The notes beneath the pieces were generated by a model, which saw only the letters and a program-made list of their open reading frames with translations, was not told the origin of the DNA and did no database searches. DNA of 64,000 nucleotides from Couchioplanes caeruleus (GTDB lineage Bacteria; Actinomycetota; Actinomycetes; Mycobacteriales; Micromonosporaceae): the NCBI RefSeq assembly GCF_023499255.1, contig NZ_CP092183.1:2239501-2303500 (forward strand). The letters are read 5' to 3'. Made by a program: the position numbers and the translations under genes. This document shows, piece by piece, positions 2,244-6,884 of the stretch; the stretch's first letter is position 1, and every line of letters begins with the position of its first letter.

Positions 2244-3455
2244 GTGGGCATGGGCATGGTCAAAGTCGTCGGGCTGGTCCTGCATCCCCGGCGGGACTGC
2301 GGCTCGGCCATCGAGGCGATCGTGCGATGGGCGGCGTCACGCGACGTGACCGTGCTGGGCCTGCACGACGAGATCACCCGGATCGACTGCGACGCCGTCG
2401 AGGTCTCCGCGGAGGAGATGGTCGAGCGCGCCGGGCTCCTGGTCAGCCTCGGCGGTGACGGCACCATGCTGCGCACGATGCGGCTGGTCGAGGGGCGCAA
2501 GACCCCGGTGCTGGGCGTCAACGTCGGCCGGCTCGGCTTCCTCGCCGAGGTCGACCTGCCCGACCTGCCCGGCGCGCTGTCGGCGATCGACGAGCACAAG
2601 TTCACGGTCGAATCGCGGACGGCGGTGCGCACGGTCCTGCCCGACGGCAGGGAAGTCTCGGCCTTCAACGACATCGCGCTGGTCCGCGTGCCCGGCGACG
2701 GGCTCGCGCACGTCGGCATCACCGTCGAGGGCAGCAACTTCGTCCGGTACGCGGCCGACGCCGTGATCGTCGCCACGCCCACCGGATCGACGGCGTACAG
2801 CTTCTCCGCGGGCGGCCCCATCGTCTCGCCGAACGTGGAGGGCATCCTGGTCAGCGCGTCCGCCGCGCACTCGTCGTTCAACCGCTCGCTGATGCTCTCG
2901 CCCGACGAGCACCTCGAGCTGGAGGTCGCGGCGACCAGCGGCCGGCTCGCCATCGAGGTGGACGGCATCATCCAGGGCCATGCCGGGGCGGGCGACCACC
3001 TCCGGATCATCCCCGTGCCGGCCGCCGCGCAGGTCATCCGCTTCGGCCGGACCTCGTTCTACGAGCGCGCCCGGCGCAAGCTGCGCGTCGAGGGCAGCGC
3101 CCAGGTCGGCGGCGGCGACCCGTCGGACGCCGTGGTGGTGGACAGCTTCGAGCAGTCCCGCTACGAGGTGCTGCTCGGCGGAGAGCTGGCCGGCGTCCTG
3201 CACTACCGGCGGCACGGGCAGCAGGTCGAGCTGGCGCACACCGAGATCGACCAGGCCTTCGAGGGGCGCGGGCTGGCCGGCCGGCTCGCCGCGGGCGCCC
3301 TCGACGACGCCCGCCGGCGCGCCACCCCCGTCGTGGTCACCTGCCCGTTCGTGGCGGGCTGGCTGGACCGTCACCCCGAGTACGCCGACGTGCTCGCCGC
3401 CCCGCCGGACCCTCGTCCCGAGAACTCCATCCACACCGGAGGCAACCTCTCATGA
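2244..3455 (+). CDS. nadK: NAD kinase fused to a C-terminal GNAT-like (PF14542-type) domain
   Basis: Residues about 6-285 are an ATP-NAD kinase, which makes NADP from NAD in the cytosol. Key motifs are GGDGT (70-74), the ND pair in FNDIALVR (142-143) and TPTGSTAYSFSAGGP (178-192). After a short linker, residues about 298-387 form a compact GNAT-type acetyltransferase module with HTEIDQAFEGRGLAGRL and VVVTCPFVAGWLDRHPEY, the signature of the small CG-type GNAT family. NAD kinases are normally about 290-300 residues, so the 403-residue length reflects a genuine in-frame fusion. Starts at 2244 (GTG), 2250 and 2256 (ATG) are all possible; no strong ribosome site decides. Its stop overlaps the next start (ATGA), so the zinc-finger gene is translationally coupled. 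Confidence 0.88.
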   Translation: MGMGMVKVVGLVLHPRRDCGSAIEAIVRWAASRDVTVLGLHDEITRIDCDAVEVSAEEMVERAGLLVSLGGDGTMLRTMRLVEGRKTPVLGVNVGRLGFLAEVDLPDLPGALSAIDEHKFTVESRTAVRTVLPDGREVSAFNDIALVRVPGDGLAHVGITVEGSNFVRYAADAVIVATPTGSTAYSFSAGGPIVSPNVEGILVSASAAHSSFNRSLMLSPDEHLELEVAATSGRLAIEVDGIIQGHAGAGDHLRIIPVPAAAQVIRFGRTSFYERARRKLRVEGSAQVGGGDPSDAVVVDSFEQSRYEVLLGGELAGVLHYRRHGQQVELAHTEIDQAFEGRGLAGRLAAGALDDARRRATPVVVTCPFVAGWLDRHPEYADVLAAPPDPRPENSIHTGGNLS

Positions 3456-3745
3456 GCGAACCCGCCTGCACCCACCTCGACCAGGCGAACGACGTCACAC
3501 CGTCCGGACAGGGCTGCGTGGAGTGCCTGGCGGCCGGCGCCCGCTGGGTGCACCTGCGCGTCTGCATGACGTGCGGGCACGTCGGCTGCTGCGACTCGTC
3601 GCCCGGCAAGCACGCGACCGCGCACTTCCACGGCGAGTCCCACCCGCTCGTGCAGTCGTACGAGCCGGGTGAGGACTGGTGGTGGTGCTACCAGGACGAG
3701 GTGGCCTTCAAGGTCGCCGACGCCCCCACGTTCACCTACGGCTGA
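3452..3745 (+). CDS. UBP-type zinc finger protein
   Basis: A 97-residue protein that is essentially one UBP-type zinc finger. Candidate zinc ligands are C6, H8, C22, C25, C38, C41, C46, H54, H58 and H64, followed by a WWWCY patch (76-80) corresponding to the region that holds peptide C-termini in eukaryotic members. In eukaryotes this fold binds the free Gly-Gly end of ubiquitin; bacteria lack ubiquitin, so the partner here is unknown. Its ATG overlaps the nadK stop and the next gene begins 17 bases after its stop, placing it in the middle of the redox-signalling operon. A role as an adaptor or sensor for that system is inference. Confidence 0.85.
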   Translation: MSEPACTHLDQANDVTPSGQGCVECLAAGARWVHLRVCMTCGHVGCCDSSPGKHATAHFHGESHPLVQSYEPGEDWWWCYQDEVAFKVADAPTFTYG

Positions 3746-3762
3746 GCACGCAGAGGAACTCC

Positions 3763-5421
3763 ATGGGTCACCCCGCCATCCTGACCGTCGACGACGACCC
3801 CTCCGTCTCCCGGGCGATCGCACGGGACCTGCGCCGCCGCTACGGCGAGAACTACCGCATCATCCGGGCCTCCTCGGCGACCGACGCCCTGGAGGCGCTC
3901 AGGGACATCAAGCTGCGTGGCGGCCGGGTCGCCGTCATGCTCGCCGACTACCGGATGCCGCAGATGAACGGCATCGAGTTCCTGGAGCAGGCGATGGACC
4001 TGTTCCCCCACGCGCGGCGGGCGCTGCTGACCGCGTACGCCGACACCGACGCCGCCATCCAGGCCATCAACGTGGTGGACGTCGACCACTACCTGCTCAA
4101 GCCCTGGGACCCGCCGGAGGAGAAGCTCTACCCGGTCATCGACGCGCTCCTCGACGCGTGGCAGGCCACCGGTGACCGCGAAGTCGAGGACATCCGCGTC
4201 GTCGGGCACCGCTGGAGCGAGCCGTCGTACCAGATCCGGGATTTCCTGGCGCGCAACCTCGTGCCGTACAAGTGGCTCGGCGCGGACGACCCGGAGGGGC
4301 GCCGCCTGCTCGAGGCCGCCGGGGTGGGCCCCGAGGCGATCCCGCTGGTGGTGACGGCCGACGGCCGGGCGCTGGCGCAGCCGAGCACCTCCGAGGTGGC
4401 CGAGGCGGCCGGCCTGTCCACCGCGCCCAACCGCGACTTCTACGACCTGATCATCGTGGGCGGCGGACCGGCCGGGCTGGGAGCCGCCGTGTACGGCGCC
4501 TCCGAGGGCCTCAAGACGCTGCTCGTGGAGCGGCAGGCGGTCGGCGGGCAGGCCGGGCAGAGCTCCCGCATCGAGAACTACCTCGGCTTTCCCGACGGCA
4601 TCTCCGGCGCCCAGCTCACCGACCGGGCGCGCCGGCAGGCGGGCAAGTTCGAGGCGGAGGTGCTCAACACCCGCGAGGTCACCGGGCTGCGGCTGGACGG
4701 CTCGGCCCGCACGCTGACCTTCGGCGACGGCGGCGAGGTGTCGGCGCACTCGATCGTGCTGGCCACCGGGGTCGCGTACCGGCCGCTGGTCGCCGACGGC
4801 ATCGCCGAGCTGACCGGCTCGGGCGTCTACTACGGGTCCGCGTCGACCGAGGGCCCGTCGTGCGCCGGCAGCGACGTCTACATCGTCGGCGGGGCGAACT
4901 CGGCCGGGCAGGCGGCGCTCTTCTTCTCCCGGTACGCCCGCAGCGTCACCCTGCTGGTGCGCGGCGACTCGCTCGAGGCGTCCATGTCGTACTACCTGAT
5001 CCAGCAGCTCAACAAGATCGACAACGTGCACGTCCGGACCCGCTGCGAGGTGGTCGGCGCGCAGGGCGACGGGCACCTGCAGGCGATCACGATCTGCGAC
5101 AGCAAGAACGGCCGCAGCACGACGGTCGAGTGCGGCTACCTGTTCGTCTTCATCGGCGCCGAGCCGCGGACGGACTGGTTGAGCGACGCGGTGGCCCGCG
5201 ACGAGAAGGGTTTCGTCTACACCGGGCCGGACCTGTTGACGAACGGCACACGCCCGGCGGGATGGGATCGCGACCGCGATCCGTTCTACCTGGAGTGCAG
5301 TGTTCCCGGCATCTTCGCCGCCGGCGACGTCCGGGCCAACTCGGTGAAACGGGTGGCCTCGGCGGTCGGCGAGGGCGCGATGGCCGTCACGCTGGTCCAT
5401 CGTTACCTGGAGGCACAGTGA
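3763..5421 (+). CDS. Response regulator fused to thioredoxin-reductase-like flavoprotein
   Basis: This 552-residue protein has three parts. Residues 1-135 are a receiver domain with acidic D10-D12, phospho-acceptor D62 in LADYRMPQMNG and K113. Residues about 142-220 look like a thioredoxin/glutaredoxin fold without a CxxC (HRWSEPSYQIRDFL where the redox motif would sit). Residues about 225-552 are a FAD/NADPH reductase with GGGPAG (233-238), a second dinucleotide motif GGANSAGQ (376-383) and the C-terminal FAD motif GIFAAGDVR. The redox CxxC of true thioredoxin reductases is reduced to one cysteine (C367), so disulfide reduction of thioredoxin is unlikely. The ATG at 3763 has AGAGGA upstream. 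The kinase gene overlaps its stop (GTGA), so the pair is a two-component system with a redox or NADPH-dependent output. Confidence 0.9.
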   Translation: MGHPAILTVDDDPSVSRAIARDLRRRYGENYRIIRASSATDALEALRDIKLRGGRVAVMLADYRMPQMNGIEFLEQAMDLFPHARRALLTAYADTDAAIQAINVVDVDHYLLKPWDPPEEKLYPVIDALLDAWQATGDREVEDIRVVGHRWSEPSYQIRDFLARNLVPYKWLGADDPEGRRLLEAAGVGPEAIPLVVTADGRALAQPSTSEVAEAAGLSTAPNRDFYDLIIVGGGPAGLGAAVYGASEGLKTLLVERQAVGGQAGQSSRIENYLGFPDGISGAQLTDRARRQAGKFEAEVLNTREVTGLRLDGSARTLTFGDGGEVSAHSIVLATGVAYRPLVADGIAELTGSGVYYGSASTEGPSCAGSDVYIVGGANSAGQAALFFSRYARSVTLLVRGDSLEASMSYYLIQQLNKIDNVHVRTRCEVVGAQGDGHLQAITICDSKNGRSTTVECGYLFVFIGAEPRTDWLSDAVARDEKGFVYTGPDLLTNGTRPAGWDRDRDPFYLECSVPGIFAAGDVRANSVKRVASAVGEGAMAVTLVHRYLEAQ

Positions 5422-6884
5422 GCGACATCGAGGAAATCCAGCTCCAGCCCTGCGAACCCGGCAAGCTCACGATCGCCGAGCTCAAGACGCTGTTCCTGTT
5501 CGAGAAGCTGACCGACGAGCAGCTCACCTGGATCGCCGACCACGGCTGCACCATGCACGCGCCGGCCGGCTCCCTGGTGCTGCGCGAGGGCGACCCGGCG
5601 GAGATCTTCGTGATCCTGCTGAGCGGCACGATCTCGCTCAGCCGCCGGGTCGGCCAGGACGACGTACAGACCTCGCGGACGGAGCAGCGCGGCGTCTACA
5701 TGGGCGCGACCCAGGCGTACATCCGTGACGAGGGTGTGCCCCGTACGTACATGGCGTCGATGCGCGCGCTCGACGACGCCGACTTCTTCGTGCTGTCCGC
5801 CGCCGACTTCGGCTGGATGATGCGCGAGTGGTTCCCCATGGCGATCCACCTGCTGGAGGGGCTCGCGCTCGGCATGCGCAACACCCAGGCGGCGATCAGC
5901 GAGCGGCAACGCCTCGTCGCGCTGGGCGCCCTGTCCGCCGGCCTCATGCACGAGCTCAACAACCCGGCCGCAGCGGCGTCGCGGGCGACCGGCGCGCTGC
6001 GTCAGCGCGTCGCGGGCATGCGCCACAAGCTGGGCATGCTCGCCGCGGGCAAGGTCGACCCGGACCGCCTCGACGCGCTCGTGGAGCTGCAGGAGGAGGT
6101 CATCGAGCGGGCCGCCAAGGCGCCCGAGCTGACCGCCATGCAGGCCGCCGACCGGGAGGACGAGCTCGGCGACTGGATGGAGCGGCGCAACGTCACCGGC
6201 GGGTGGGACCTCGCCCCGGTCTTCGCCCAGGGCGGCCTCGACGTCGCGTGCCTCGACGACATGGAGGCCAAGGTCGGCTCGCCCGAGCTGCTCGACCAGG
6301 CCATCCATTGGATCGGGTACGCGCTGGAGACCGAGCAGCTGATGAGCGACATCGAGGACGCCACCGGCCGGGTCTCCTCCCTGGTGTCGGCGGCCAAGCA
6401 GTACTCGCAGCTCGACCGCGCCGCGCACCAGTGGATCGACGTGCACACCGGCCTGGACAGCACGCTCGTGATGCTCGGCCACAAGGTCGGCAAGGGGATC
6501 AAGGTCGTCAAGGAGTACGACCGCGGCCTGCCCCAGGTGCCGGCCCACCCCGCCGAGCTCAACCAGGTCTGGACCAACATCATCGACAACGCGGTTCAGG
6601 CCATGGCCGGCGCGGGCACGCTGACGCTGCGTACGTACGGCGAGGACGGCCACGTCGTGGTCTCGATCGGCGACACCGGCCCCGGCGTCCCGGAGGAGTT
6701 GCGCAAGCGGGTCTTCGAGCCGTTCTTCACCACGAAGCCGGTGGGCGAGGGGACGGGCCTGGGCCTGGACATCTCGTACCGCATCGTGGTGAACGGCCAC
6801 GGTGGCGACATCGTGCTGCAGTCGAAGCCGGGGGACACCCGCTTCCTGGTGAAGCTGCCGCTCGCGGAGCCGTCCTCCCGCTGA
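5418..6884 (+). CDS. Cyclic-nucleotide-domain sensor histidine kinase
   Basis: A 488-residue soluble histidine kinase; no membrane segment is evident, so it should sense in the cytoplasm. Residues about 25-145 form a cNMP-binding-type beta-barrel (LVLREGDPAEIFVILLSGTISLS). The dimerisation/phospho-acceptor region holds the H-box LMHELNNPAAA with H179. The ATPase domain (about 350-480) has the N-box NQVWTNIIDNAVQA, G-box GDTGPGVP and EPFFTTKPVGEGTGLGL. The GTG start overlaps the stop of the response regulator-reductase gene by GTGA, strongly suggesting they are cognate partners. Whether the sensor domain binds cAMP or another ligand, or none, is unknown. Confidence 0.9.
   Translation: MSDIEEIQLQPCEPGKLTIAELKTLFLFEKLTDEQLTWIADHGCTMHAPAGSLVLREGDPAEIFVILLSGTISLSRRVGQDDVQTSRTEQRGVYMGATQAYIRDEGVPRTYMASMRALDDADFFVLSAADFGWMMREWFPMAIHLLEGLALGMRNTQAAISERQRLVALGALSAGLMHELNNPAAAASRATGALRQRVAGMRHKLGMLAAGKVDPDRLDALVELQEEVIERAAKAPELTAMQAADREDELGDWMERRNVTGGWDLAPVFAQGGLDVACLDDMEAKVGSPELLDQAIHWIGYALETEQLMSDIEDATGRVSSLVSAAKQYSQLDRAAHQWIDVHTGLDSTLVMLGHKVGKGIKVVKEYDRGLPQVPAHPAELNQVWTNIIDNAVQAMAGAGTLTLRTYGEDGHVVVSIGDTGPGVPEELRKRVFEPFFTTKPVGEGTGLGLDISYRIVVNGHGGDIVLQSKPGDTRFLVKLPLAEPSSR

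Follow-up and report, generated by a model that had tools for sequence, protein, structure and literature searches.

Most response regulators act on transcription, and it would be unusual for phosphorylation to control a redox enzyme directly. The joining of a receiver to a protein of the thioredoxin reductase (TrxR) type has already been named in print, as the REC-TrxR combination (PMC5847659), and the product names given to relatives in databases include 'Fused response regulator/thioredoxin-disu...'. In this work we analysed 64,000 nucleotides of the Couchioplanes caeruleus genome (contig NZ_CP092183.1, positions 2,239,501 to 2,303,500; this whole stretch is called the window), where such a receiver-flavoprotein is encoded in a four-gene operon together with a histidine kinase carrying a cyclic nucleotide-binding (CNB) fold, a zf-UBP zinc finger protein and a fusion of a NAD kinase (NADK) with a GNAT domain. 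No functional study of this four-gene set was found in the literature searched: the passages that place a thioredoxin reductase under EcfG (PMC6599016) do not show it to belong to the family of the window flavoprotein, and those of another paper (PMC8945050) hold nothing on the receiver-flavoprotein family. The domains, the gene arrangement, their conservation, the missing cysteines and the exchange of input domains described below are established at the level of sequence. We read the operon, with about as much confidence as doubt, as coding for a flavin oxidoreductase that is thiol-free and gated by a signal.

The genome that holds the window is a single contig of 8.42 Mb, from the Actinoplanes group of the Micromonosporaceae. 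All four genes lie on the forward strand (coordinates are those of the window): gene 1 (2244–3455) and gene 2 (3452–3745) share an ATGA overlap, a spacer of 17 bases (3746–3762) leads to gene 3 (3763–5421), and gene 3 shares a GTGA overlap with gene 4 (5418–6884). Pfam assigns NAD_kinase, NAD_kinase_C and Acetyltransf_CG (PF14542) to gene 1, zf-UBP to gene 2, Response_reg and Pyr_redox_2 to gene 3, and cNMP_binding and HATPase_c to gene 4, all above the curated cut-offs. Open reading frame coordinates and Pfam bear out the positions, order, spacing and named domains given for the four genes in a preliminary description made from the letters alone. The receiver occupies residues 1–118 of the flavoprotein (3763–4116; Response_reg, 53 bits) and has the full active-site set of an acidic pair, D62, Thr and Lys; D62 (codon 3946–3948), already singled out in that description, aligns with the receiver aspartate and is the predicted phospho-acceptor. 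The kinase (488 amino acids, 5418–6884) has an H-box His, an N-box Asn and a HATPase_c domain (residues 378–483, 6549–6866, 84.8 bits), and its predicted phospho-donor, H178 (codon 5949–5951), is a His in 85/85 aligned related kinases, namely those scoring above 220 bits. Its sensor domain (residues 22–152, 5481–5873) has the CNB fold without the canonical phosphate-binding cassette, and matches cNMP_binding at 33.2 bits for a cut-off of 27.5.

The comparison of neighbourhoods covers 168 loci with a relative of the flavoprotein: 75 from the genomes of a phylum sample, 13 plasmid records and 80 genome contigs. At E 1e-80 a relative is present in 61 of the 296 phylum-sample genomes, and 102 plasmid records match; the wide neighbourhoods cover 75 of the 88 places outside the window genome and 13 of the 50 plasmid records listed among these 102. 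By their N-terminal parts, taken as the 330 residues before the last 330, the loci divide into 111 of receiver type, 46 of CNB type and 11 with no recognised N-terminal domain. The five key receiver positions can be read in 108 of the 111 (L055, L103 and L162 were dropped for gaps), and in the intact loci they are DDDTK in 75, DEDTK in 5 and EDDTK in 1. A CNB-kinase (above 100 bits) lies within 4 kb in 77/81 loci with an intact receiver versus 0/27 with a degenerate one. The receiver motif used in the scan of the 80 contigs favours intact receivers, hence counts were also made by source, and in the phylum sample alone, drawn without a motif filter, the pairing is 33/37 versus 0/22. Of the four intact-receiver loci without a kinase, two (L064 and L073) are cut off by the contig end partway through a kinase match, and the other two (L086 and L087) are not. 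The pair is found in Actinomycetota, Cyanobacteriota, Pseudomonadota, Deinococcota, Bacteroidota, Acidobacteriota, Gemmatimonadota and Thermomicrobiota, the kinase matches being downstream of the flavoprotein gene in 78 cases and upstream in 14; in Bacteroidota the kinase is upstream in all six loci that have one, the seventh (L156) having a degenerate receiver and no kinase. That genes 3 and 4 recur together in loci of eight phyla, and in more than one gene order, goes far beyond what chance would give; the proposal that the partner of the kinase is a receiver fused to a flavoprotein holds as a conserved pair. In four loci (L059, L060, L063 and L066) one receiver-flavoprotein is followed by three consecutive CNB-histidine kinases, an arrangement in which several signals might lead to one output. 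In most of the loci L079–L102 the receiver can still be recognised but is degenerate, and no kinase lies nearby.

The flavoprotein is 99% identical to one of Nucisporomicrobium flavum, and on the tree it stands closest to that of Paractinoplanes tereljensis. Its module (residues 225–552, 4435–5418) has the TrxR fold and the FAD dinucleotide motif, as seen by Pfam, alignment and model. In the HMMER alignment to 2a87, the site of the CATC redox pair (4837–4848) reads S-A-S-T, and the next residue is E363 instead of the Asp of TrxR. Counts by column in 165 sequences, which leave out L096, L162, L185 and L206, show that both catalytic TrxR cysteines are lost in 164/165 relatives, that the nucleotide motif is kept (N 163, S 162, G 163, Q 163) and that the residue beside the lost pair stays acidic (E 138, D 11). 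The label TrxR used previously thus applies to fold and homology only. The qualification 'NADPH-type' was not upheld either, as the HRRxxxR motif reads VRGDSLE in the window protein, and its first Arg is kept in 162/165 sequences, the second in 19/165 and the third in 7/165. Over residues 223–552, that is the module with neither the receiver nor the glutaredoxin-like part, the AF2 model of the flavoprotein lies at a root-mean-square deviation of 1.7 Å from the flavin-reducing (FR) form of Lactococcus lactis TrxR and of 7.5 Å from its flavin-oxidizing (FO) form. The FR arrangement is the hydride-transfer form, in which the nicotinamide can reach the flavin. An FR-like state, as modelled, would fit a thiol-free enzyme, because an enzyme with a dithiol must leave FR and one without it need not.

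Between receiver and module lies a glutaredoxin-like domain without active-site cysteines (residues 143–215, 4189–4407), recognised by PF00462 in relatives, by a profile match and by the model. PF00462 matched two of five proteins tested, one of them (L130) above the cut-off, and matched L165 above the cut-off in a separate test; the Pfam scan gave no PF00462 match in the window flavoprotein itself. A profile of the region matched the putative glutaredoxin Rv3198.1 (E 3e-7), and the modelled region has the order b-a-b-a-b-b-a. The active site reads WSEPSYQ in the window, and a Cys is found at position 152 in 4/165 sequences and at 155 in 8/165. In one locus (L195, 7485–8990) a zf-UBP gene is followed by a shorter flavoprotein, seemingly without a full glutaredoxin-like domain. 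On a Gloeocapsa plasmid (L128, 4775–7311) the module adjoins genes for a thioredoxin-domain and a DsbA-family protein, with a heavy-metal P-type ATPase some 4 kb away.

The same flavin module also occurs with another input. A CNB domain akin to that of the kinase takes the place of the receiver in the 46 CNB-type loci; this class was set by a profile of the kinases' own CNB domains (scores 38–91 bits), and Pfam cNMP_binding matches 6/6 of the proteins tested, five above the cut-off. No CNB-kinase above 100 bits lies within 4 kb in any of these 46 loci. In two further loci (L165 and L128) no input domain is recognised on the module, and on the tree two changes between receiver and CNB are needed. 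Since one module is joined to differing inputs, the simplest reading is that it is the effector and that receiver, CNB domain or nothing is its regulator. The preliminary description overlooked this exchange, the lost cysteines and the glutaredoxin-like domain. For the CNB domains we searched with the pattern GE.. to RS/RA, which we take to be that of the phosphate-binding cassette. It is absent from the CNB domain of the window kinase and present in 9/86 kinases (window included), in two of these in the wrong domain, and in 6/46 one-component proteins; as a control, it was found in 3/6 other CNB loci of the window genome. With the cassette lacking in most of these CNB domains, the ligand of most members, that of the window kinase among them, is probably neither cAMP nor cGMP. 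The missing cassette was also the reason for rejecting canonical cAMP/cGMP sensing by the window kinase, though a pattern resembling the cassette is retained in a minority of its relatives, L071, L054 and L075 among them.

The zf-UBP protein (97 amino acids, 3452–3745; domain 3515–3703, 44.4 bits) has 2ida as its closest solved chain (E 8e-36). Among 47 aligned domains C22, C25, C38, C41, C46 and H54 are invariant, H58 and H64 are kept in 46, and D48 in 45. D48 sits at what we take to be the position of the Arg that binds the carboxylate of the ubiquitin C-terminus in eukaryotic domains, and for this reason neither a ubiquitin-like role nor a pocket for the ubiquitin C-terminus, as the fold named in the preliminary description would imply, is supported. 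A zf-UBP gene is found within 4 kb of 28/81 intact-receiver loci, 13/46 CNB-type loci, 2/30 loci with a degenerate or unreadable receiver and 1/11 other loci, proximity that is above chance because the window genome has only two such genes. Of the suggestion that the last three genes recur together, the kinase and receiver-flavoprotein pair is steady, and the zinc finger recurs with it. The CNB-kinase of L071 carries the zinc finger as a C-terminal fusion. On a Streptomyces angustmyceticus plasmid (L129, 1–7299), dnaK, grpE, a dnaJ-type gene and clpB are followed by genes for a thioredoxin, a zf-UBP protein and a CNB-type flavoprotein, forming a chaperone and redox island.

The first gene encodes a protein of 403 amino acids in which an NADK (residues 1–290, 2244–3113), with GGDGT and TPTGST motifs, precedes a small GNAT domain (PF14542; residues 306–383, 3159–3392). 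The closest solved chain to the NADK part is 1u0r, an inorganic polyphosphate/ATP-NAD kinase (E 3e-36), and its score is below every NCBIfam NAD kinase cut-off listed, with a best of 174.9 for 299 bits. The window genome has three NAD_kinase matches, of 67.3 bits at genome position 2984067, 55.2 bits for the operon copy and 26.9 bits at genome position 1362350. By its sequence the operon NADK is a divergent extra paralogue. Paralogue-level NADK is present in 63/150 genomes of one bacterial family (71 matches less 8 canonical-like ones at about 40% identity), and its neighbourhood was examined in 43 of the 63. NADK and GNAT are in one frame in 15 further loci (L212–L225 and L233), and a separate GNAT match follows NADK in L228–L231. 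In all 15 other loci of Actinoplanes type, of which 14 belong to the genus of the window and one to genus g226, NADK-GNAT, flavoprotein and kinase have the same direction, with the zinc finger in 6. In genus g241 a reversed zinc finger gene lies within 2.5 kb of NADK in 7/7 loci, with the flavoprotein in 6 and the kinase in all 4 covered by a wide enough stretch; in genus g220 zinc finger, NADK and GNAT are together in 4/4 and the flavoprotein is on another contig; and in genus g216 NADK and flavoprotein are unlinked, 22–26 kb apart in 5/6 genomes. Within the family the flavoprotein is present in 60/63 genomes with NADK versus 39/87 without, or by genus 12/14 versus 14/30 (p 0.02). The idea of an NADP-making enzyme beside the flavoprotein is thus supported within one family, where the NADK paralogue tracks the flavoprotein, and not beyond it. 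In one Actinoplanes-type locus (L282, 2642–3697) the NADK match is in two pieces about 60 codons apart in one frame of 478 codons, seemingly through extra residues. Standalone PF14542 GNAT genes near the system in L078 and L123 were not used as evidence, as they may be there by chance.

Other neighbours look bound to their lineages, such as glycogen genes in three cyanobacterial records and a gene set common to Streptomyces-type loci. Upstream of the operon (1144–2146) are genes for a cold-shock protein and a methyltransferase, a pair found in 4 of 23 NADK loci tested, the window's included.

From this arrangement we infer phosphotransfer, binding of FAD and NAD(P)H, gating, the nature of the acceptor and roles for the zinc finger, NADK and GNAT. 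In the model that we favour, the soluble CNB-kinase would sense a cytoplasmic cue through its CNB-fold domain, autophosphorylate on H178 and hand the phosphate on to D62. Once phosphorylated, the receiver would work through the linker domain, glutaredoxin-like but cysteine-less, to alter access to the TrxR-fold module or its activity, and this module would carry FAD and take a hydride from NAD(P)H. As there is no dithiol, the electrons would go from the flavin directly to a non-disulfide acceptor, which may be a quinone, ferredoxin/flavodoxin or oxygen. In the one-component relatives the CNB domain, placed directly on the module, would replace both kinase and receiver. The zinc finger protein would most likely be an adaptor of the kinase-flavoprotein complex, and in one family the extra NAD kinase would supply NADP to the system. 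More tentatively, and with rather more doubt than confidence, we propose a widespread class of two-component systems with flavin redox chemistry in place of transcription as direct output, through a thiol-free TrxR-fold oxidoreductase that phosphorylation of its fused receiver would switch, with interchangeable inputs (CNB-kinase and receiver, or a CNB domain in cis), a zf-UBP adaptor and a one-family NADK, in which the phosphorelay would directly move the pyridine-nucleotide balance of the cell.

Several observations weigh against this reading. The correlation between receiver and kinase rests on few independent events, since four supported-branch pairs on the tree give two in the same direction, none in the opposite direction and two without difference. 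As two of the three arginines for the 2'-phosphate are lost, NADH is as likely a donor as NADPH, and the FR form of the AF2 model is no proof of catalysis. One CNB-type locus (L188) also carries, in opposite orientation, a different kinase-like gene that matches in its ATPase part only (54.5 bits). The zinc finger is lacking near 53/81 intact-receiver loci, and at E 1e-72 the NADK paralogue was unmatched in the other 295 of the 296 phylum-sample genomes. The flavoprotein is also there in family genomes that lack NADK, as counted above, and 15/43 NADK loci have none of the three partners (zinc finger, flavoprotein, kinase) within about 5 kb, one more locus being cut by a contig end. This last point and the confinement of NADK to one family would be explained if NADK-GNAT were a lineage-specific neighbour without a role in the kinase-flavoprotein system. 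We give this somewhat less than an even chance, considering that the cluster is kept in all further Actinoplanes-type loci, that the same partners recur in another order in g241 and as zinc finger-NADK-GNAT clusters in g220, and that NADK and flavoprotein co-occur, by genome as by genus.

The flavoprotein might instead be the sensor, the occupancy of its FAD and NAD(P)H sites setting receiver phosphorylation, so that it would feed the redox state to the kinase or itself serve as a phosphate sink. Loss of the cysteines with retention of the nucleotide and flavin motifs would suit such a role, as would the fact that kinase and zinc finger are the only recurrent neighbours recognised beyond one lineage, and the sharing of one flavoprotein by three kinases in four loci. 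We nevertheless find it unlikely, because the module is also found on CNB domains, on degenerate receivers or with no recognised domain, in each case without a kinase, which points to an effector. Somewhat less likely still is a pseudo-enzyme, in which the receiver would switch a module that acts as a scaffold or as a chaperone-like dimer, with the zinc finger as client-binding adaptor: the cysteines of both the TrxR pair and the glutaredoxin site are gone in nearly all members, and the zinc finger does lie near 28 of the intact-receiver loci, but against it stand the near-invariant nucleotide motif, the acidic residue beside the lost pair and the extra NAD kinase in one family. An ordinary TrxR or AhpF that is controlled by a two-component system and relies on cysteines at other places is highly improbable, given 164/165 sequences with no cysteine at either catalytic position and the presence in the window genome of two TrxB proteins with CATC; as a true thioredoxin reductase or AhpF the window protein was rejected for the missing cysteines. 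The effector reading thus remains the one that we prefer, and the exchange of receiver and CNB inputs offers a clean test of the role of the shared flavin module.

What appears to be new here is the near-universal cysteine loss, the presence of a glutaredoxin-like domain, the constancy of the CNB-kinase as partner, the exchange of CNB for receiver beside one and the same zinc finger, and an NADK specific to one family. At least 8,000 candidates match the flavoprotein search, ordinary relatives included, and since the members examined have no catalytic cysteines, naming as thioredoxin reductase is probably wrong for many proteins. The published REC-TrxR fusion has the same architecture as the window protein, a receiver and then a TrxR fold, and the passages that describe it are silent on the missing cysteines, the glutaredoxin-like domain, the CNB-kinase, the zinc finger and the CNB exchange (PMC5847659). 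The proteins named 'Cyclic nucleotide-binding domain-containing thioredoxin-disulfide reductase' share the glutaredoxin-like and TrxR-fold module, the missing cysteines and, in 13/46 loci, a zinc finger within 4 kb, but carry the CNB domain in cis instead of a receiver and a kinase. The zinc finger protein belongs to the same small zf-UBP family as 2ida, presumably a bacterial protein, which is annotated 'Hypothetical protein'. AhpF also has a thioredoxin-fold part followed by a TrxR module, and the window protein scores 196 bits with an AhpF homologue model; however, its scores fall well short of the cut-offs set for AhpF models, it has a receiver added and it has no cysteine pair in either part. 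Low-Mr TrxB has the fold, the FAD motif and the FR-like arrangement of the window model, whereas the window protein has no CxxC and has largely lost HRRxxxR. With the TrxR-type ferredoxin/flavodoxin-NADP+ oxidoreductase (FNR) of Bacillus the window module has the TrxR fold in common, and by sequence it is nearer to TrxR (best E 1e-42) than to FNR (best E 1.6e-19). A TrxR-type FNR is a TrxR fold without CxxC, a definition that the window module fits.

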